Part shown: positions 21,662-33,852 of the stretch, piece after piece
How positions within the stretch are numbered: position 1 is the first letter of the stretch
Layout: the number at the start of each line of letters is the position of its first letter
IMG/VR virus record: IMGVR_UViG_3300046804_002424
Coordinates: 1-64,000 of that record
Reading direction: 5' to 3' (one strand)
Length of the DNA stretch: 64,000 bases
From: a virus
The notes under the pieces: generated by a model
Told to the model about the DNA's origin: nothing
The model's input: only the letters and a program-made list of their open reading frames with translations
Databases searched by the model: none
Made by a program: the position numbers and the translations under genes

Positions 21662-24433
21662 TTAACTATCTGATGTTCCTGAAAAAGCTCCATAGCCAGC
21701 AATCATAGTATTAGTGTAAGCCAATTTGTTATCGTTTGTATCAAATACCATCATTTTGATGTCATCTGTTGTTGTGGTAGTTGGATATGATGTGGCATAT
21801 GTTTGCTCTGATAATATAGACTCTGAGACACCCTGATTAATATATAAGCCAGATGATGTTATAGAAAATCTGTTTGGTGATGATGGTCCAGAATCATATG
21901 ATACTGTGAATTGATTATTATTATATTCTACATAATAGTAAGTACTATTAAATAATCTAGTTATTCCAGACACATGTAAATTATAAGAAGGTACTGCATT
22001 AATACCTATTCTATTAAATTCACTATCAACAATAAATAAATTGTTTGTTCCGGAACCTAAAATATTGAATGCTTTACTTAATGCTGCTTTATTATTATTA
22101 ATTAATACAGTTCCTTGTCCAGTTGGAAACACTGTATTGGTACTACCTAAATATAAACCACTTGTGGCGCTCCAATAAACTCCTGTTGTGGAAACTAGAC
22201 TTGTTCCATCATAAATAACCATTGCATTATTGGTCATAGACGATGACAATTTAGCAATATTACTTGGTATAATAGCGGATGGATCAACAAAAGAAACATA
22301 GCCGTTTGGCTGATATGTTGCTATTGCTCCAGAAACAGGGGCTGAGGATGTTCCAGAATTTATAATAATATTTTGAACATAAATACTATCTGTTGATAAA
22401 GTTCCACTTACATCTAGCGAATATGATCCTGGAGTTTTATTTACTCCTATACCATTATTTCTGATAAAAATACCTGAAGTGCTAGATGCTCCATATATAC
22501 TAATATTATTAATTAATCCTGAATTAACAACAATATTTCCAGAATTAAGAACTATTGATGGATTATTAATGCCAAGAACAATACCATTCCCAGACGAAGA
22601 TAAATTATGACCTATGATTATACCACTATTTCCTAGTATGGTATCATTATTACCTATTACTACAGAACTATTACCATTAACTAATCCACTATTACCAATA
22701 TAAATTGTATCTCTTCCATTTATATTATTAGTATTACCTATTGAACAGCTATATACTCCGGAAACATTTGATTGAGATCCAATAATTGTAGTTAAATCTT
22801 TACCACTATTATTTAATCCAATTATATTACCAGATGAACCAATGAAAATATTATTTTGTCCAATATTTGAGATATAATTACCACTAATATATGTGGAATG
22901 TCCAACATCTATTATCCCAGTACCAGAAACAGAAGAATTATTTCCTATTAGTAAAATATTAGAACCATAGACTGTATCTGATCCTATAACCGAAATTTGA
23001 TTACCAGACACTGTTGATGAATGACCGGCTACTAAATTACCACTACCTTGTAAACTGTTAGAATTGCCAACTAAAATGTTTGTATTGGAAGTTGTACCAG
23101 AAAGATTATTATTGTTACCTCCAATAAAATTATTATATCCACTATTAATTACTTTGTTTCCAATTATAACATTATTATTATCGTTAGTTTGAGATGCTAG
23201 TCCAATATTAATTTTTGTTGGATGAACAGCAAGAATATTGGTCGAGACACCAGAAAGGTCAACATTAAATAATAATTCTCCACTGGTATTATTGATTGTT
23301 GTTCCTAATATTCTACTTTTAATTTGGGCATAATTTACTTGTTGGGCACTACTATTTCTTCCAGCTAAATTAATAATTGCTGGATAATCTCCAACTTCTG
23401 AGCCGCTAGTAGAATTATGATACAATGTGAGCTGTGTTCCACTGGCACATTGTGAAGATGTTTCAAGTCTCAAGGTTTCATTTGCACATCTACCAACCAG
23501 ATGTAATACTGACGAAGGAGTATTTGTATTAACTCCTAATCTTCCTGTTGAAGCATCAAAGTATATCTGATTTACTGTTCCTGTACCTTTTACTTGAAAA
23601 TCGGAGTTGTATGCTTGATTGTTAAAAACAATATTTTGTCCAGAAAATGCTGGTAAAATTATATTCCCAGAAGCTGTTGAAGAGCCGCCGAGTATAAGAT
23701 TGCTATTGTCCCAATGAAGATTATTACTTCCTGCAAAATCTACTTCATTAAGTTTAAATTGTAAATTACCTGAAGAACCGGCTGGTAATCCGGCACTATC
23801 TATTTGAATCTCATTATTTAGTTCATACCAGCCAGATCCATCTGAAATTATAGATGTAAATTTTGTTGCTGGAGTAAGAGTTAATGTTGATGCGCCATCA
23901 ATGAGTTGTGATCCAGATGGTGAGATAATGATATTATTTGTTGATGAATTTAAAGATCTAAATGATAAAAGTAGATTTTTATTTCCAGATGCCGATGGTA
24001 AACTAACTGTTACGTTTGATCCGCTAGCAGAAATACCATATGTTGTTTGAACTGTGTCTGCTACAAAACTTGATGTTTTTAAAGCAAAATTATTGCTGCC
24101 ATGGTTAATTCGCTCTGCATCTATTACTGCTATTACGCTTTTAGTTCCGGCGCTTAAAACAACTTTAGCATTGCTGTTTGAAGATTTATAAATAGTAGTA
24201 ACGCTATCATATCCTCCACGAGCTAATACTATTTGACCACCATTATCTATAACTTTACCAAGACCATACTCCCATTCTTGCAGAGAATCGTGTTTTAAAT
24301 AATATGGAACATATTTATTTACTAAACTAGATAAAGAAGTGTAGTATGATAGTGCTGATCCAAGTAATAGATCATTTAATCCATCACTGCTTGTTGTATT
24401 TCCAAGATTATTATCGTAATAATATACTGTCAT
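21662..24433 (-). CDS. large tail fibre with left-handed-roll-like repeats
   Basis: 923 residues. Residues about 420-660 hold a series of 14-18 residue repeats rich in Asn, Gly, Ser and Ile (for example IIGNKVINSGYNNFIGGNN, GNLVAGHSSTVSGNQ, IGNTNNINGRDTIYIG). This is the pattern of YadA-head / Hep_Hag trimeric rolls. Upstream are GVNTNTPSSVLHL and downstream GIGVNKTPGSYSLDVSG blocks, the latter typical of fibre collars that register to the tail. The start ATG is 3 bp from the stop of the tape-measure gene. It is most likely a trimeric receptor-binding fibre. Confidence 0.7.
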   Translation of the reverse strand: MTVYYYDNNLGNTTSSDGLNDLLLGSALSYYTSLSSLVNKYVPYYLKHDSLQEWEYGLGKVIDNGGQIVLARGGYDSVTTIYKSSNSNAKVVLSAGTKSVIAVIDAERINHGSNNFALKTSSFVADTVQTTYGISASGSNVTVSLPSASGNKNLLLSFRSLNSSTNNIIISPSGSQLIDGASTLTLTPATKFTSIISDGSGWYELNNEIQIDSAGLPAGSSGNLQFKLNEVDFAGSNNLHWDNSNLILGGSSTASGNIILPAFSGQNIVFNNQAYNSDFQVKGTGTVNQIYFDASTGRLGVNTNTPSSVLHLVGRCANETLRLETSSQCASGTQLTLYHNSTSGSEVGDYPAIINLAGRNSSAQQVNYAQIKSRILGTTINNTSGELLFNVDLSGVSTNILAVHPTKINIGLASQTNDNNNVIIGNKVINSGYNNFIGGNNNNLSGTTSNTNILVGNSNSLQGSGNLVAGHSSTVSGNQISVIGSDTVYGSNILLIGNNSSVSGTGIIDVGHSTYISGNYISNIGQNNIFIGSSGNIIGLNNSGKDLTTIIGSQSNVSGVYSCSIGNTNNINGRDTIYIGNSGLVNGNSSVVIGNNDTILGNSGIIIGHNLSSSGNGIVLGINNPSIVLNSGNIVVNSGLINNISIYGASSTSGIFIRNNGIGVNKTPGSYSLDVSGTLSTDSIYVQNIIINSGTSSAPVSGAIATYQPNGYVSFVDPSAIIPSNIAKLSSSMTNNAMVIYDGTSLVSTTGVYWSATSGLYLGSTNTVFPTGQGTVLINNNKAALSKAFNILGSGTNNLFIVDSEFNRIGINAVPSYNLHVSGITRLFNSTYYYVEYNNNQFTVSYDSGPSSPNRFSITSSGLYINQGVSESILSEQTYATSYPTTTTTDDIKMMVFDTNDNKLAYTNTMIAGYGAFSGTSDS

Positions 24434-24435
24434 AA

Positions 24436-27400
24436 TTAATACCCTTCATTTTGTCTACTCTTTTGATCAAACGCATCTTTAATCGCTCTTTGAACCAGAG
24501 TTCCTAATGGTCCGTTAAGAACATCTGCCAGCACTGACGCCCCATTAATTGTTACATTAACAGGAATAGGTGTTGGAACTTCCAATCTTACTGTGGATGG
24601 TATAGCATTGTGAAGTTGTTCAATAAATCGGTCTAGTCGGTTTCCAAGTGCTTCTATGCTGACTGATGGATTGATCTGATTATTAGATACACCGTTTGTT
24701 TGTACCTGTCCTATCTCAGGATTATTTTCAGTTATATTATTAAGCTTCTTAACAGCATTAACAAATGCCAAATTAAGATTATCTGCTCCTTTCTTTAACA
24801 TATCTGATAAATAGGTCATATTTGAATCTAAAACAGATGTTCCTGGTGTTCCTGTTGCTAAATATGCTACTCCTCCTTTAGAATAGTAGCCATTATTAAT
24901 AGCCTGTAATAATCCTAAATGTTTTTGAGATGCTTGACGATTAACAACAAATTCGCCAGGAGTTAACATGGCAGGAACAGTATCTGTGCCCATTGGTTGA
25001 TATGGAACCAGAGTCCCACTATTTGCGTAAACTACTCCTCCATATTGTTTTGATTTTGGCGTTAAATGAGGTAGCGTAGGTGGTAATTGTGGAGTATTTC
25101 TTCTTCTTGTTTTTTCCTCTTCGCTATTAAATTTATTATTTACAGGAATTTGACTATACTGAAAACGCTTGTATTCATCTATCATATCTAGAGCAAATTT
25201 AATTTGCTCATATTCTTCGTCATCTATCACAGCATCTTTGCGCTGTTTTTTACCTTCCAAATAACCAGATGCTCGTAATCTTTGTTGCAATTCGAACATT
25301 GCTCGATTATCAGTAGGAGCTAATTGAGCATTTATTTGTTTTCTTAGTCTATCAAGCATTGCTGCTTTTTGTTTTTCTTCTTGTACCTTTTCTCCTTGTA
25401 TTCTTCTATCATTTAAAGCTTTGGCTCTGGGAGTCTTGAACGGTATATAGGAACCATCTTCAGCATAAACAACTCCGCCTTTATTATAATAGTCTTTATT
25501 TGGAAGATTTTTTGGATTAAATTCATTAAATATTGATGTTTGATCTCTCTGTAATCCTGACAGCTTTTTTTCGGCCATTAATCTATTCCATACTTTATCT
25601 ATCAAATTAATTTCTTTTTCGGATCCAAAATACTGTCCTCTCAAAATCTCAATCGCATTTCTATTTGGCGTCATTTCTTTGTCAAAAATCTTAAGAGCAG
25701 CTTCAACATTTGCACGTACTCTATATAAATAATTTTGTCTTTTTGTGGCTTTTCTATATAATTCTCCTGGATTTTGCCCACTATCAAGTTTTTGTCTTAT
25801 ATTATCTTCTTTTTCTTTAACGTTGATATTAAAAGCATCTTTTCCAAATAATTCTGGGGCATCTTTCATTTGCTGAAATAATTCTATAGTTATTTTTTCA
25901 GAAGGGCTGGCTTTTTTATAAGCCCTAAAAGCTTCATTTTGTTCAGCAATAAGTTGATACTGTGTTATATTTTTGTCAAACCAATTATATTTATTTCTTG
26001 CTATTCTAGCAGCATCAGTTACATCTTTAGCTTGTTCAACATAAGCTGATTGATCTCGTTCAACTCCACCAAATCTCATTTTTCCTTCTTGATCAACTCT
26101 TTGTTTATTTTTACGATTTAGAATCCAATATTTTCCACTTTGTTTTAATAATGACATTCTGTATTGAAGATTACCAGCAACTCCTCTTAAAAGATCGTTA
26201 GGACTTCTAGATGGAATTTCTCCACCAGTAGCATAATATCCACTATTTATAGCTTGTAATAATCCTAAATTATCTTTTGTTGATTGAGCATTTACAACAA
26301 ACTCTCCTGGCGTAAGCATTGCCGGAATAGTATCTGTACCTTTTGGCTGGAAGTTGATATATTTGCCATCAGAAGCATATACCATTCCGCCAGTATTAAA
26401 TTTTTGAGAATTAATAGAATTTGATAAATTATTTATATTTTTATTTAGTAATAAGAATTGTTTGTTATTTGAATCTTGACTATTTCCTATAGACGAATCA
26501 AGAGATGGAATCTGATTATTTTTTGTAGTTAAAGTTGTATTATTAATATTTTGAGATAGTGTTTTAACGGTATCAAGTTTATTACCTAATGTTGTCTGAT
26601 TGATCAGACCGCTTCTTGTCATATCTTCTTGTCTTGCTGTTGCTGATCTTTGTGATACTCCTGATAAATCTGCTTGACCTCCAACAGCCAGATAGTTTAT
26701 TCTACCTCCCTTACTATTATTTATAGCAGTTAATAGTCCAAGATTTTCTCTTGTAGATTTTGCATTAATTACAAACTCACCCGGAGTTAACATTGCTGGT
26801 ACAGTGTCTGTGCCTTTGGATTGGAAATTAATATATTGGCCATTGGCAGCATATATTAATCCACCATTAGCTCTTAGTTGTCCATTAGCATTAGCTCTTG
26901 GTTGTGGAGGAGCAGCGCCCATTCGTCTTGCTATATCATTCATAGCGGCAACAAATGCTCTTTGTGTTTCAGCAAGGGAGTCCAATATTTTTTTTCCAAC
27001 CTCCTGTAATAAATCTTTTTGAATAGTTCTATCATTTTCATTTTGTAGTCTAACAGCATCAACCTGAGCCTGTTTTAATGTTTCCATTCTATTTACTAAA
27101 GCTAGTAATACAGGATCATCTTTTGCTCTTTCTGCTGGATCTTGTCGTAGTGTTGCTAAAATTTTCTGGAAGAATGGATTTTGATCTAATCCTGTACCTT
27201 GGGCTCTGGCAAAACCTTCTAAAAGATCAGCTTTCATTACGTCTAATTCTGGACCTTCTATTCCAGCAATTTGTGTTAATTCACCAAATAAACTTAATGC
27301 TTTTTTATTCTCATTAGCATATGCCGCTTGAGCATCGCTCATAGCTTCTTGGGCTGTTTTACCTTCTTTTATAGCTTGAACATAAGCTTTTTGTGCGGCC

Positions 27401-30400
27401 TGAGATTGGTATATTGTGGTTAGTTGACCTCTTAATGTATTATTTAATAAATTAAATGTTTGATTCAATTCCATTAATTCTTGTGGTGTGCTGCCAACTA
27501 ATTTTTCTGCAAATGCTGATCCTGCTTGCTTTTGTGCTTCTAGTTGAGCAACTCGTTTCTGAATTTCTGATGTAACATCACTTATAGCTCCTTCTAGTGA
27601 TGCTGGTAAATCTTCTAGTTCTTTACTTGTTTTATCTATAGTAGAATTAACTTTTGCTAACTTAAGTTGTAAATTAGCAACTTCTCTTGCTGCTCCAGGA
27701 TTAGTTGCTGTTTCTGCTGATTTTTTATCAATTTGAGCTTGTAATGCTTGTTGTTCTTTTTGAGCATTAGCTCTCATATTCGCAATATTTTGCGGAGTAA
27801 AATCGCCCTGATTTTTAATTCCTAATCTGGCCCTGTTACCTGCAAAACGAGCATTTATTCTTTCTCCAATAGATACTTTTTGTCCTAATGCTTCTTTTGT
27901 GGCTAATCCACTCTGGGCTTGCATTTCTACTAATGCTGCTGTTCTATCTACTCTTCTTTGTTCAATTTCTACTACTCTTTCTGCAACCTTGCCCAACTCT
28001 TCTAAATGTTTAGCAACATTCTCATTGTTTTTAATGAGTAATTGTCCGGCCTGTTGTGCCGCTTTATTTAATGGTCCTGTTGCCTTGTCTATTAATTCAG
28101 CAGGGTCTATTGATGAATCTCCCGCCTCTTCAACAGCTTTATCAACAGTTTCTCTTACTCCATTTATTAGAGTTTGAGCCATGCTGCTATTTGGACCAAA
28201 AGTGGCCAAGATATCATTTGTTAAATTACGAGTAACAGATGCTCCTACTTCAGCATTACTTCCTCCGGCATTATAAACAGCATTCGCTTCTCTTGTTGCC
28301 TTTTCTGTGGCTCTTGCTCCAAATTCTGCTACTCGTCCAACTAATTGTCCTGTTGGTCCCATTCTAGAAGCAGATGACGATATTGCTGCTTGTCTTTCTG
28401 CGGCAGAATAAGCGTTAGGATTTTGAAGAACATTATTTGTTTTTGCGAATGTGGAACTGGTTAAAGAAGCTTTTCCAGAAAAAATCTCGTCAGCTTTGCC
28501 AGATATTTGTCCCAAATCAAAACTAGATTTATTTAATACTTCGTCTAAAGCATTAAAAGATTTTTCCAAACTAACAACTGCTTGCATCATTACAACTTGT
28601 AATTTCTTAGATGCTTCTGCCGCAGCCTTTGCTTGTGCAGCAGCACCGGCTTCTGCTGTTGCTCTTCGTGATATATTTTCTGCCATAGCTGCCAAGTCTT
28701 TATTAGTCTGTGCTTGTACAGCATCGGCCTCTGCTCCTCTTCCACTATCTCTTAATTTTTTGATTTCGTCCGCTCTTTGAAGTTGAAAAGCCGCATATTT
28801 TTCATCTGCTTCGGCTATATTAGAGGTTAGAGTTTTAAACTGGGCAGGGCTCATACTTTTGCTTACTTCATCAAAAGTCTTCCCTGTTCTCATCATTTCT
28901 GCTTCTAAAAATTGTTGAGCCTGTTCTGCTCCTGCCTTTTGAGTTTCTGCTCTTCTTTTGCCAAGATCTGCTGTTGTTTCATCTTGATATCCTAACATCT
29001 TGCCAAAACCACTTGCTCTTTGTCTTTTTATACCTTCTCCTGCGGCAGCTTCTACAGAGGATGCTTCATTAAAAGACTTAAAGAATGCTAATTTTTGTGC
29101 TCCGCCTGGTTTAGACATATAAGCTTGAAGGGCTTTTCCGCTTTTTTCTGTTGCAGCTTGAGACGCTGCCACTTTTTGACTTTGAGCATATTCTTCATTT
29201 GCTTTCTTGGCATCTCCTAGACCCATAACAAATCCCGCTAAAGCTCCTGCTGCTGCGCCTACTCCTGTTCCAATAGGACCAAATAAACTTCCTACGGTTG
29301 CTCCTATAGAAGCCATATTTGCTACGCTTCCGCCAACTGCTGATATTGTTCTGCCAGACTCTGTTTTTTCTCCTCCCATAGCATTAGATAGAGCCTCTAC
29401 GCCCATACCGCCAACCATTGTTAAAGCCATGCCAGCCATGCCAAATCCGCCTCCGCCACCACCATCTCCGGCTCCTCCGGCTCCTCCTGCTCCTCCACCA
29501 CCTCTTGCTCCTCTGGAACCAAATCTTCCTAAACCAATAGAATTTAATACTCCTCCTCCAATGCTACTAATCAATCCGCCAGCACCTCTTCCAGCAGCCA
29601 TCACACTAGATTTGCCAACTTGTAATAATCCGGTTCCAGCATTTTTTGCAGCTTGTGTTAGAGTTTGAAGTGGCGTTGTTGCATTTTTAAGACTTGCAGC
29701 AAATTGTAATCCTGCATTAGACATGTTACTAGTAGAAGACATACCCATAGGAGTATTTCTTCGATCTACCACATCCTGTCCTCTTTGATATTGTCCAACA
29801 TTTCCGGCAATTTGATTTATTCTTGCTTGACTGGCCGCAAAGCCAGTAGGACCAACAGGAGCAGTAATATTTCTGGATTCTGATACTCCAGCGGTTTGTT
29901 GTAATACTCCTTTTTTGGGTGTTCTTTCTGAACCTGCTCCTCCAACTCCAGCTCCTACAGCAGAGGATAGAGCATCTGCTGTTGATGCTCCTTTCTCTAA
30001 AGATCTGTCTAATTTTTTCATCGCCATAGCGATATCTTCTGCTGGCCAATCAGTGACCATGCGCTCTAGCTGTTCAAATGCTTGAGCATTTCTAGTTATG
30101 CTAGCACCAAGCCTAGCAGAATCTTTTGGAGACATTCCAGCTAATGTGGATTGTAAAAGTCCACCAGAATTTAACTTTTGTACACCTCCTACAGCACCAC
30201 CTTTATTAAATCCCTGAATTTTATCTGCTCTATTTAATTGATGAAGTCTGCTTGCTCCTATTCTACTTGCTGCTTTTCTATTAATTACAAATTCGCCAGG
30301 AGTTAATAATGCGGGAACAGTATCTGTGCCAACTCCACCGCCAACAGCAAACTTCTTTCTACGCTGCATGTAACGATAGTCTCTAGTGGCGGCACGAACT

Positions 30401-33400
30401 TCATTAGCTTGATAACGAATGCTTTCACGTATTTTTTTAGTTTTATTCTTTTCCTCTATCTCTATCATGGATTTGTCAGCATTAGCGCTCATGCTCTTAG
30501 CACGGGCTATAGCAGCATCACCAGCAGTTTTTCTTTCTTGTTCTAGTCTAGCTTTTAAATCTGCTTCGCTTTCTTGCTTTAGGGTTGTTTGCGGTCTAGC
30601 ACTGGCTTGCTCACGCATAGCCATTTCTCGTAACATTTTTCCCTGCATTGGATCTAGCTTTACTAATTGACCAGTTACTGCATCCCAAACACCAGCTAAA
30701 GAAGTGTCAGTAAGTAATTGTTTACCATAAGCTTGACCAGTCCACCAAGTTCTTGATTTACCTTTACCAAGTTTATCCGCAATTGCTTGAGCTTCTCCAC
30801 CTACAGCAAATTTTTGGATAAACCCACCCATAGCTTTTCTAAACCATTTAGTTCCAGTTTTTGAAAAGTTTCGATTACGATCAGAAACAGTTGCAAAGCC
30901 CTGTGCCTTTAATTCTCCTGTAGTATATGGTTTATCTCTTTCAAATTTTTGTAAATTAGAATTTCCAGCTAATGTTGGAGGCGCAGCCTGTGTTTTTTCT
31001 TGTGCTTCTTGTTGTATTTTAGAAGCTGTTTTAGCTTCATTATCTATGTAAAGAGATGGATTCTTTCTAATTTCATTAGCTAATTGTCTAATAGTTTTAG
31101 CTCTAAGAGATCCGCTTCCGGTAATTTGTGCAGTCTTAAATGACGCTTTTGCATCTACCCATTTGGGAGGAAGTCCAACAAAATCATCACTTAAAACTCC
31201 GCCAAGACCATTTGGAAAATCGAATGGTTGCTGAGATTCTCTTTCTGCGAATGGTCCTCCTCTCATAGAAAGAAGAACATCTTCAAATAAATTTCCTCTA
31301 GTAGCATCATTAATTCCACTTAAAAATGCTTGTTTATCTCCCTTGCCAATTTTTGCCACATCACCCATTCCCAAATCTTTAGCTAATAATCTACTAGCAT
31401 AATTAACTCCTCTTACTATTCCTTCATCAAGAGCATTATTAAAAGCTCCTGAAGTATTAGAACTGAGACCAACTCTTGGAGCATTGAATTTTCCTAGTGT
31501 TGGTAAATTCTTTAATGGTTTTCCTACAGCCTTTTCTAAACTTTTAGGACTTAATAAAAACTCGGCCTGTCTTGCTGGTCCTGCCTCTAATATTGCTGCT
31601 CCAACAGTTTTATTTCCTGCTTTTATATCATCAATTAAACCTCCACCAGCAAATCTTGCTACTCTTTGTGCTCTTGGACCTTTATTTTGGAATGCTTTAT
31701 ATGCTCCTTCTTTACTTCCTCCTCCAGTAAATATCATATTTCCAATAGGAATACCAAATAATTCGTTAATGTATTCTGCAAGTCCTGGTGTTCTGCCAGA
31801 TTTGCTTATAATACTAAGATTAGCAGGATTAACTTTTCCGCCCTGAATTGATTTTTGTAACATTCTTCCAAATTGAGTTAATCTTGCACTTTTGGCATCG
31901 GCTAATCTTGTTGTTGGATCTCTAAAATATTTTGATAATACGGCATCTTTTTGTCCTGTTGTTTTAGCTTTACCGTATGCTTGATCTCCAACTGTTCTTT
32001 TTAATGTTCTGTCAAAATCTAATGCTCCATATCCACTAGCTAATATTTTTTCTAAAGCTATTTTATTTGGTAATATCGCGCCCTTAGCATTTGCTGTTAT
32101 ATCATCCACCATTGGTGCTTTTGCTGATCCGCCTTTTGCAAATCTATTCATTTTATGAAGTTTATTAATTCCAATAGCTTGAACTGCTTTCTTTCTAATA
32201 ACAAATTCTCCAGGTGTAAGCATTGCTGGAAAAGTATCAGAATTACCTTCTCCCGGAACAACACCTCCTGTGGCAAAACCTCTAATAAAACCACCATTAT
32301 TTTGACGGCGTAATCCACCAGCAAATCCTGCTCCAAATCTTGTTAATGCTGATACTCCTCTAAATGCAGCAATAGCTGTTAATGCTGGTAATACTGTTTT
32401 TGCACTATCAGCTAATCTGATTAATGCGCTAGCAAGATCTAGACTTAATCTTACGAAAGTTTGAAATGTTGAACTTTCTCCTAATGATCGGATTAAAGCA
32501 GTGAACTCTTCTCTTACTTTACTTATTTGATTAGATAAACTTAGTTGTGCCGTGGCCGCATCTTTGGCTAGTGATCCTTGTCCCTGCTGTGCAACTTTCA
32601 ATGCTGCCTGTGCTGTTGCAAATTGTTGAATAAGTGGAATCACTTTACCAATCTGGCGGAATCCACCAAGTTCTTCTACAATCTGAGAGAATCTTAAATC
32701 TCGTGGATCAAGTTTACTCAATCCTTCGCTTAGTCTTCTAACTGCTTCATAAGGACCAACGAATTTACCTTCTAAATCTGTTAAAACTACCCCATATTCT
32801 CTTAGGGCTTTGATTGTATCTCCTCTTTGAATTCTGGTAAAAATTGTTCTTAAACCAGTAGCAATTGTTTCTGCACTTTCACGAGTTGTGGCACGAACAC
32901 TTGTAAATACAGCTAAGAATTCATTAAGAGCATCTTTACCTTGACTAACACCTTTGCTTGCTGTGGCAAACACACCACCAGTACGCTGAATAGCTGTAAT
33001 TAAGTCACTAGCTTCTACCGCGAACTTAGCAGCCACAGAATTAACACTACCAAGAGCATCTTCTAATTCTCCAGCACTAATTCCGAACTGTCTCATCAAA
33101 GCAATAGAACCTTCTACCGTATCTGATAAACTATCAAACGATGGAGCCAAAGCACTTAATGCTAACGCCCTAAGAGCTTTTTCAGTATCTTTAGCGCTGA
33201 GACCGGCCTGAGCCAATGTACTAGATACAGAAATCAAATCTTTTGACGCTATACCAAGACTTGTAGATAGTCTAGTAATCTCTCCAACTAATGGGCTCAA
33301 TTGAGATAAACTAGAATCTGTAACTTGAGCAACTCTTACTAATTCTCTATTAAAATCAATAAACTCAGTTGTTGCAGAAGAAATGGCATTTGTGAATCTA

Positions 33401-33852
33401 TAAATAACTCCGGTAACTGTTGCAAACGCAGCGAATCTTCTAACGGCCAATGCTGACTGTCTACCGAATTCTTCAAACCCACCGGCAGCTTGGTTTAGAG
33501 CATTATTGGTTTGTGTTAAGGCATTATTTGTATTTGCAGCTCCAGTATTTATTCTATTTAAATTTCTTGGTATATTACCAATATTATTATTAGTTACTGC
33601 TGCTGCTCTGCCCAATGCTGTTAAGGCTGCTGCTGCATTTCTGGCAGAAGTTTGTGTTGTATTTAAAGATGTATTTAATCTTGTAATAGATTGTTGTAAT
33701 GTATTAACATTTCTTGCAGTATTATTATTTATATTAACATTTACATTAGCGGTAATACCAGATAACTGCCTTCTTATATTGGCAATTATAGGTCTAATGT
33801 TTGCTGGACCTCTTAAATTTAATTCTGCTGTGAGATTAAATGCTCTTGACAT
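24436..33852 (-). CDS. tail tape measure protein
   Basis: 3138 residues, the largest gene in the window. Residues 1-540 are the usual tape-measure front: helical, with TITxLxxSLGI-type motifs (LVGEITRLSTSLGIASKDLI) and the TP901-type segment. Five copies of the TPGEFV[IV] motif occur at about residues 547, 1184, 2355, 2515 and 2964. A HAD-like motif (ALDFDRTL, about 611) and a nuclease-like segment (FDFPNG to KWVDAKAS, about 870-900) lie between copies one and two. Residues 1400-1500 are Gly-rich and hydrophobic (GAGGAGDGGGGG, then MAGMALTMVGGMGV) and may be the membrane-passing part. The length implies a tail near 0.45 micrometre by the usual 0.15 nm per residue (inference). It sits just after the chaperone candidates. 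Confidence 0.92.
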   Translation of the reverse strand: MSRAFNLTAELNLRGPANIRPIIANIRRQLSGITANVNVNINNNTARNVNTLQQSITRLNTSLNTTQTSARNAAAALTALGRAAAVTNNNIGNIPRNLNRINTGAANTNNALTQTNNALNQAAGGFEEFGRQSALAVRRFAAFATVTGVIYRFTNAISSATTEFIDFNRELVRVAQVTDSSLSQLSPLVGEITRLSTSLGIASKDLISVSSTLAQAGLSAKDTEKALRALALSALAPSFDSLSDTVEGSIALMRQFGISAGELEDALGSVNSVAAKFAVEASDLITAIQRTGGVFATASKGVSQGKDALNEFLAVFTSVRATTRESAETIATGLRTIFTRIQRGDTIKALREYGVVLTDLEGKFVGPYEAVRRLSEGLSKLDPRDLRFSQIVEELGGFRQIGKVIPLIQQFATAQAALKVAQQGQGSLAKDAATAQLSLSNQISKVREEFTALIRSLGESSTFQTFVRLSLDLASALIRLADSAKTVLPALTAIAAFRGVSALTRFGAGFAGGLRRQNNGGFIRGFATGGVVPGEGNSDTFPAMLTPGEFVIRKKAVQAIGINKLHKMNRFAKGGSAKAPMVDDITANAKGAILPNKIALEKILASGYGALDFDRTLKRTVGDQAYGKAKTTGQKDAVLSKYFRDPTTRLADAKSARLTQFGRMLQKSIQGGKVNPANLSIISKSGRTPGLAEYINELFGIPIGNMIFTGGGSKEGAYKAFQNKGPRAQRVARFAGGGLIDDIKAGNKTVGAAILEAGPARQAEFLLSPKSLEKAVGKPLKNLPTLGKFNAPRVGLSSNTSGAFNNALDEGIVRGVNYASRLLAKDLGMGDVAKIGKGDKQAFLSGINDATRGNLFEDVLLSMRGGPFAERESQQPFDFPNGLGGVLSDDFVGLPPKWVDAKASFKTAQITGSGSLRAKTIRQLANEIRKNPSLYIDNEAKTASKIQQEAQEKTQAAPPTLAGNSNLQKFERDKPYTTGELKAQGFATVSDRNRNFSKTGTKWFRKAMGGFIQKFAVGGEAQAIADKLGKGKSRTWWTGQAYGKQLLTDTSLAGVWDAVTGQLVKLDPMQGKMLREMAMREQASARPQTTLKQESEADLKARLEQERKTAGDAAIARAKSMSANADKSMIEIEEKNKTKKIRESIRYQANEVRAATRDYRYMQRRKKFAVGGGVGTDTVPALLTPGEFVINRKAASRIGASRLHQLNRADKIQGFNKGGAVGGVQKLNSGGLLQSTLAGMSPKDSARLGASITRNAQAFEQLERMVTDWPAEDIAMAMKKLDRSLEKGASTADALSSAVGAGVGGAGSERTPKKGVLQQTAGVSESRNITAPVGPTGFAASQARINQIAGNVGQYQRGQDVVDRRNTPMGMSSTSNMSNAGLQFAASLKNATTPLQTLTQAAKNAGTGLLQVGKSSVMAAGRGAGGLISSIGGGVLNSIGLGRFGSRGARGGGGAGGAGGAGDGGGGGGFGMAGMALTMVGGMGVEALSNAMGGEKTESGRTISAVGGSVANMASIGATVGSLFGPIGTGVGAAAGALAGFVMGLGDAKKANEEYAQSQKVAASQAATEKSGKALQAYMSKPGGAQKLAFFKSFNEASSVEAAAGEGIKRQRASGFGKMLGYQDETTADLGKRRAETQKAGAEQAQQFLEAEMMRTGKTFDEVSKSMSPAQFKTLTSNIAEADEKYAAFQLQRADEIKKLRDSGRGAEADAVQAQTNKDLAAMAENISRRATAEAGAAAQAKAAAEASKKLQVVMMQAVVSLEKSFNALDEVLNKSSFDLGQISGKADEIFSGKASLTSSTFAKTNNVLQNPNAYSAAERQAAISSSASRMGPTGQLVGRVAEFGARATEKATREANAVYNAGGSNAEVGASVTRNLTNDILATFGPNSSMAQTLINGVRETVDKAVEEAGDSSIDPAELIDKATGPLNKAAQQAGQLLIKNNENVAKHLEELGKVAERVVEIEQRRVDRTAALVEMQAQSGLATKEALGQKVSIGERINARFAGNRARLGIKNQGDFTPQNIANMRANAQKEQQALQAQIDKKSAETATNPGAAREVANLQLKLAKVNSTIDKTSKELEDLPASLEGAISDVTSEIQKRVAQLEAQKQAGSAFAEKLVGSTPQELMELNQTFNLLNNTLRGQLTTIYQSQAAQKAYVQAIKEGKTAQEAMSDAQAAYANENKKALSLFGELTQIAGIEGPELDVMKADLLEGFARAQGTGLDQNPFFQKILATLRQDPAERAKDDPVLLALVNRMETLKQAQVDAVRLQNENDRTIQKDLLQEVGKKILDSLAETQRAFVAAMNDIARRMGAAPPQPRANANGQLRANGGLIYAANGQYINFQSKGTDTVPAMLTPGEFVINAKSTRENLGLLTAINNSKGGRINYLAVGGQADLSGVSQRSATARQEDMTRSGLINQTTLGNKLDTVKTLSQNINNTTLTTKNNQIPSLDSSIGNSQDSNNKQFLLLNKNINNLSNSINSQKFNTGGMVYASDGKYINFQPKGTDTIPAMLTPGEFVVNAQSTKDNLGLLQAINSGYYATGGEIPSRSPNDLLRGVAGNLQYRMSLLKQSGKYWILNRKNKQRVDQEGKMRFGGVERDQSAYVEQAKDVTDAARIARNKYNWFDKNITQYQLIAEQNEAFRAYKKASPSEKITIELFQQMKDAPELFGKDAFNINVKEKEDNIRQKLDSGQNPGELYRKATKRQNYLYRVRANVEAALKIFDKEMTPNRNAIEILRGQYFGSEKEINLIDKVWNRLMAEKKLSGLQRDQTSIFNEFNPKNLPNKDYYNKGGVVYAEDGSYIPFKTPRAKALNDRRIQGEKVQEEKQKAAMLDRLRKQINAQLAPTDNRAMFELQQRLRASGYLEGKKQRKDAVIDDEEYEQIKFALDMIDEYKRFQYSQIPVNNKFNSEEEKTRRRNTPQLPPTLPHLTPKSKQYGGVVYANSGTLVPYQPMGTDTVPAMLTPGEFVVNRQASQKHLGLLQAINNGYYSKGGVAYLATGTPGTSVLDSNMTYLSDMLKKGADNLNLAFVNAVKKLNNITENNPEIGQVQTNGVSNNQINPSVSIEALGNRLDRFIEQLHNAIPSTVRLEVPTPIPVNVTINGASVLADVLNGPLGTLVQRAIKDAFDQKSRQNEGY

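Follow-up and report, generated by a model that had tools for sequence, protein, structure and literature searches.

Swapped enzyme-type domains occupy a variable slot in a family of phage tape measure proteins

Introduction

What are sequences that resemble the active sites of a phosphohydrolase and a nuclease doing inside a phage tape measure protein? The question is raised by an open reading frame (ORF) of 3138 amino acids (aa) in a 64,000-nucleotide stretch of viral DNA, hereafter the window, which covers positions 1 to 64,000 of the 66,067-base IMG/VR record IMGVR_UViG_3300046804_002424. Tape measures are usually regarded as rulers and pore formers. They are also believed to enter the cell envelope by injection; in phage P23-45 the tape measure bears a virion RNA polymerase with a presumed activity during DNA entry (PMC10770324), and that of lambda is found at the inner membrane, beside entry proteins, during DNA injection (PMC13190303). 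Phages are further thought to ship multi-enzyme polypeptides, the polyvalent proteins (PMC5512222). An initial annotation of the window proposed that HAD-like and PD-(D/E)XK-like domains are inserted in the tape measure and could enter the host with the DNA. Here we show that the protein contains a fixed slot with recombinational variability, whose content is conserved enzyme-type domains. Within a literature search restricted to open-access full text, such a polymorphic cargo slot appears to be new; earlier reports outside that literature are possible.

A hypervariable slot between two repeats

The initial annotation had placed the tape measure gene correctly: the ORF at 24436-33852 on the minus strand is intact and encodes 3138 aa. 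Its identity follows from a PhageMin_Tail domain, matches to several PHROGs tape-measure families, the very great length of the protein, and the presence of terminase, portal-like, head and tail genes in the window (Table 1). Using the tape-measure N-terminus as bait, we recovered 72 IMG/VR loci (31-94% identical, on contigs of up to 238 kb) and three contigs of metagenome-assembled genomes (MAGs). This bait was far more productive than the first degenerate scan, which had returned one relative, and a scan with the HAD-like domain added further loci. De-duplication by content left 66 sequences, namely the window, its IMG/VR relatives (designated by L numbers below) and the three MAG contigs, some of them being fragments. 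From the MAG contigs and the sample context, we infer that this is a freshwater phage group.

Nearly all of the 66 tape-measure sequences contain copies of a GEFVI repeat (PAMLTPGEFVI...), of which the window has five, R1 to R5. R1 comes after the conserved N-terminus and R2 comes before the next conserved stretch, and the zone between them is hypervariable, ranging from 148 to 2212 aa (median 747) in the 42 tape measures where it is complete and both borders could be assigned. Comparison of the window with its nearest relative, L005, locates the variability precisely. Before the slot the two proteins are 91% identical over 100% of the sequence, and in the 1050 aa that follow it they are 75% identical over 99%, whereas only 27% of the slot aligns; the aligned part, 85% identical, corresponds to the HAD-like domain.

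The content of the slot is equally distinctive. All 84 copies found with the profiles of five enzyme-like families lie inside the slots; the remaining 105,080 aa of the 42 tape measures contain none. Linkers of the GG-x-I-x-K/R-F type are also concentrated there, with 1.61 per 1000 aa in the slot and 0.43 outside it, about a fourfold difference. One of two nuclease-like families, which we call PDX and PD2, is present in 39 of the 42 complete slots; the remaining three (L008, L054 and L067) hold similar strings, read by eye, that fall outside the profiles. A distant relative, L006 (45% identical), has the first repeat only and no recognised cargo domain. Cultured phages gave distant matches to the tape-measure N-terminus only, with no similar zone in any of them, and tblastn of the zone, and of the HADc-PDX pair of a relative (see below), against 50,697 phage records returned no match.

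Since the GEFVI segments and glycine linkers that border the zone could be protease sites, we considered whether the cargo works in the producing cell, the giant protein being processed during tail assembly and the zone freed as enzymes late in infection. Injected polyvalent proteins are themselves thought to be proteolysed (PMC5512222). We nevertheless regard release in the producing cell as clearly unlikely, as no cleavage site or protease was identified and GEFVI repeats also recur elsewhere in the tape measure, at several positions.

Table 1 Tape measure gene of the window, with its domains and repeats
Feature	Residues	Window position	Strand	Basis or remark
Tape measure protein, intact ORF	3138 aa	24436..33852	-	Pfam PhageMin_Tail and PHROGs tape-measure families
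PhageMin_Tail domain	192-395	32668..33279	-	Pfam, E=5.3e-22
GEFVI repeat R1	536-577	32122..32247	-	left border of cargo zone
Cargo zone	578-1174 (597 aa)	30331..32121	-	variable slot between R1 and R2
HAD-like domain HADp	578-728	31669..32121	-	alignment, AlphaFold2 model, homology to HADc
PD-(D/E)XK-like domain PDX	738-945	31018..31641	-	signature, AlphaFold2 model, weak profile alignment to PD2
Third cargo segment	955-1174	30331..30990	-	linker GGFIQKF (residue 1009), terminal KFAVGG (residue 1167)
GEFVI repeat R2	1175-1215	30208..30330	-	right border of cargo zone
GEFVI repeat R3	2346-2385	26698..26817	-	
GEFVI repeat R4	2504-2546	26215..26343	-	
GEFVI repeat R5	2955-2995	24868..24990	-	

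HAD-like domains of the slot

The cargo of the window would be, in order, a HAD-type phosphohydrolase-like domain, a PD-(D/E)XK nuclease-like domain and a third module. The strings quoted for the first two in the initial annotation were located at residues 610 (ALDFDRTL), 679 (LSIISKSGRT), 708 (FTGGGSKEG), 877 (FDFPNG) and 897 (KWVDAKAS). Such motifs are weak evidence by themselves: when residues 560-920 were shuffled, a loose HAD motif I appeared in 3.5% of cases and the E..D..(D/E)xK spacing in 73%. Plain motif counting was dropped as evidence. The second figure is also what speaks for chance resemblance in an ordinary helical tape measure, an explanation made barely credible by the conservation of the motifs over 17 copies of the HAD-like domain and 50 of PDX, by compact models of mixed secondary structure, and by the homology of the HAD-like domain to a canonical four-motif HAD.

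The HAD-like domain of the window, HADp, was found in 17 distinct copies, every one in a tape measure. Its motif I (D612/D614/T616) and motif III (K714) are invariant, as are the surrounding patterns D.DRT, R.T.GD.AY and GG.K; motif II (S683) reads I(S/T)KS, with Ser or Thr in all 17, and S683 ends strand 107-111 of the model. A candidate motif IV, D583-D584, lies N-terminal to the others. It is part of an invariant P(V/I)DD(I/L) in which a hydrophobic residue separates P from V/I, and in the model a two-residue strand directly precedes the DD. In relatives, PDX is immediately preceded by a sister domain, HADc, whose motifs I to IV follow the canonical order: DFDxT, LTARP/(T/S)AR, K and (F/L)(V/I)DDxxxN (alignment of 17 sequences, the K missing in one row). 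The homology between HADp and HADc begins at motif I, includes motif II and stops just short of motif III (hhalign probability 94, E=1e-7).

HADp thus shares motifs I (DxDRT), II (S/T) and III (K) with HAD phosphatases, and HADc adds IV (DDxxxN); unlike in those enzymes, the only candidate motif IV of the window copy, the invariant VDD/IDD, precedes motif I. A circular permutation would explain this position, and the tests of it are suggestive only. When the N-terminal segment was transferred to the C-terminal end, most HADp sequences scored about 1-3 bits higher against HADc, and for 15 of 17 the permuted order ranked within the top 10% of 100 shuffles; these gains are small, and the profile-profile score was barely altered, from 50.8 to 51.5.

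By eye, the slots of L067 and L054 contain another HAD (VFDFDMT, LTARS, FFDDD) followed by a nuclease-like E..VDAL..EIK, both of which the profiles missed.

Nuclease-like domains and selection on the cargo

PDX of the window has a complete signature, G853, E857, D878, D900 and K902. Across 50 copies, the Gly and the first Asp are invariant (50/50 each), Glu is kept in 49/50, an acidic residue at position 900 in 49/50, and the Lys in 36/50. The second family, PD2, occurs in 15 tape measures; its E and D never vary, nor does an additional Lys, and an (E/D)x(K/R) site is present as well. Profile comparison with hhalign aligned the E, D and (E/D)xK of the two families, weakly (probability 30, E=5e-4). 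What the cargo shares with the PD-(D/E)XK nuclease superfamily is therefore the nearly invariant GxxxE ... D ... (D/E)xK of PDX, together with the PVD/PID and EVK of PD2 in the same slots.

AlphaFold2 confidently modelled HADp (pLDDT 87.4, pTM 0.80) and PDX (pLDDT 82.5, few strands) as compact domains of strands and helices, contradicting the plain helical rod that the initial annotation had named as a refuting outcome. Two separate conserved domains do ride in the tape measure, as had been proposed, and the residues put forward as catalytic are conserved in the relatives (17 HADp and 50 PDX copies).

Both domains are under purifying selection. The ratio of nonsynonymous to synonymous substitution (dN/dS, Nei-Gojobori) was about 0.1-0.4 for nearly all pairs of HADp and PDX, with 0.006 for one near-identical pair; single values are rough, dS exceeding 1 in many pairs, and all pairs point to constraint.

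PDX is the commonest cargo, its slot is a recombination hotspot, and a homing-type HNH gene lies elsewhere in the window, at 1266-2060. PDX might accordingly be a selfish or recombination-promoting element that cleaves DNA and drives homing and shuffling of the slot while the other domains hitchhike. We think this very unlikely. PDX lies in frame within the tape measure, other cargo types are equally variable, and the strong purifying selection, with a single loss of the Lys (described below), does not resemble the repeated decay of a homing cycle. No intein-like boundary was seen, by eye only, and an intein or protein-splicing reading was set aside with it.

Other cargo

Slots of nine relatives carry domains resembling ADP-ribosyltransferases (ARTs): L005 (11372-11998), L002 (13310-13909), L013, L028, L035, L038, L041, L048 and L060. 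Eight of the nine match PF03496 (best E=2e-7), and the STS-type (S.S) and ExE (E.E) motifs are invariant in all copies. Weak matches in the zones, each of a single member, were to cytidylyltransferase, methyltransferase and restriction enzyme models and to NCBIfam HAD-IA (E 0.0052) and PADLOC PD_DExK (E 0.017). The zone of the window itself received no domain name in scans with Pfam, PHROGs, NCBIfam and PADLOC, and an iterative hidden Markov model search found no relative of residues 1036-1165 of the third cargo segment.

Two stretches of relatives were noted on inspection. Residues ~1435-1530 of the L003 tape measure, GYGPRLYDAVMEAA, suggest a GNAT-like acetyltransferase cargo, with nothing significant in Pfam. 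Residues ~3800-3878 of L002, in the C-terminal part of the ORF, have a J-domain-like look (YDIMGVKPG ... WLHSD) that Pfam does not support.

A probable role early in infection

Taken together, these data suggest that the R1-R2 slot exchanges small globular domains of enzyme type, which are connected through GG-x-I-x-K/R-F-type linkers, and that the HAD and nuclease cargo is probably delivered and active early in infection. The tape measure would leave the tail together with the DNA or before it, bringing the cargo into the periplasm or cytoplasm, where nucleic acids or nucleotides may be the targets of the HAD/nuclease pair as infection begins. Candidate roles include anti-defence, attack on host DNA, and the trimming and dephosphorylation of ends; nuclease and phosphatase might work jointly on nucleic-acid ends.

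Several observations weigh against such a role. As regards the Rossmann-like fold of HADs, Foldseek gave no significant match for the HADp model, the top two hits being HAD phosphatases at E=0.37 and 0.51; beyond K714, the 17 HADp copies have no conserved acidic pair in the domain, so that motif IV is not canonical; and the window HADp has no significant Pfam or PDB match. Against the PDB and BFVD, the PDX model, with few strands for the alpha-beta-beta-beta-alpha-beta core of PD-(D/E)XK nucleases, returned noise only, and its fold is accordingly unproven. Profile searches of solved structures with HADp, HADc, PDX and PD2 yielded nothing credible. In 14 PDX copies Thr replaces the Lys; they form one clade (support 96/87), consistent with a single change. 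Aligned to solved ARTs, the nine ART-like copies have Ser or Thr in place of the catalytic Arg of the first strand. Folded domains, moreover, would have to traverse the narrow tail tube.

The initial annotation is thus confirmed in what it observed and partly supported in how it read the two insertions. For the HAD-like one, motifs I to III and the homology to HADc speak in favour, alongside top Foldseek matches that are not significant, and motif IV is not in its usual place; for the PD-(D/E)XK-like one, the conserved signature and the weak profile alignment to PD2 speak in favour, and no structure match was found.

The Thr-for-Lys clade and the ART-like domains that lack the aligned Arg mean that some cargo may not be catalytic. 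Simple decay of PDX was rejected, as the Lys-to-Thr change sits on one branch and dN/dS in this clade is as low as in other copies, under continued purifying selection. By eye, PDX copies directly behind HADc keep the Lys, and no Thr copy stands there in the slots checked.

These altered sites are what enzyme folds reused as structure would lead one to expect: spacers, plugs or chaperone-docking modules that neither catalyse nor enter the host. The constrained Thr clade, the Ser at the Arg position of ART-like domains, and a HADp lacking a motif IV in canonical order all fit this explanation, as does the structural sequence that makes up the rest of the tape measures. A 15-fold range of zone length is odd in a part that sets length, however, the expected active-site columns are the most conserved, unrelated enzyme types share one slot, and L006 manages with the first repeat and no recognised cargo domain. 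Because active sites are altered in some cargo types, a structural role retains some probability, although we judge it unlikely overall.

Delivery of active cargo is most economically read as a tape-measure-borne effector array for early infection, which we infer to be a version of the injected polyvalent proteins. Those combine 2-15 enzyme domains per polypeptide, ARTs included, and are thought to be delivered with invading DNA (PMC5512222); several enzyme-like domains in one polypeptide are likewise observed here from sequence. The carrier differs, being a tape measure, a term whose first word, 'tape', never appears in the main text of that paper, and Pfam scans found no peptidase domain here. 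Also comparable is gp96 of the Thermus phage P23-45 (PMC10770324), a giant siphophage tape measure that likewise has an enzyme module in its N-terminal part, with a proposed role at DNA entry; related phages occur with and without the module. That protein carries one fixed RNA polymerase, whereas the slot described here is polymorphic, with small domains from several families that are unrelated to each other (HAD-like, two PD-(D/E)XK-like, ART-like and others). In mycobacteriophage TM4, a peptidoglycan hydrolase motif of the tape measure (PMC1796659) is similarly an enzymatic module that aids infection; it acts on the cell wall, while the present cargo resembles enzymes of nucleic acids or nucleotides and is exchanged among closely related phages.

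A swappable enzyme slot, if true, would make tape measures carriers of injected effectors, and reading this one slot would offer a route to early-infection and anti-defence enzymes. It also raises a testable physical question, namely how folded domains pass, or avoid, the narrow tail tube. A more general proposal, which we advance tentatively and hold to be doubtful, is that the tape measures of a large freshwater-phage group are a general, modular delivery platform. Its fixed slot would accept interchangeable enzyme domains that are unfolded inside the tube and fold again after entering the host; every set would include a nuclease-type domain, and one partner would be a circularly permuted HAD phosphatase.

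Further features of the locus

The R4-R5 interval of the window tape measure (residues 2547-2954) may form another variable slot. The HNH gene mentioned above is a likely HNH or homing endonuclease gene by its match to phrog_559 (E=1e-13). Adjoining the tape measure gene, at 21662-24433, is a 923-aa protein with many GN/SGN repeats, which matches a beta-roll antifreeze model weakly, under the family cut-off (E 0.0013).
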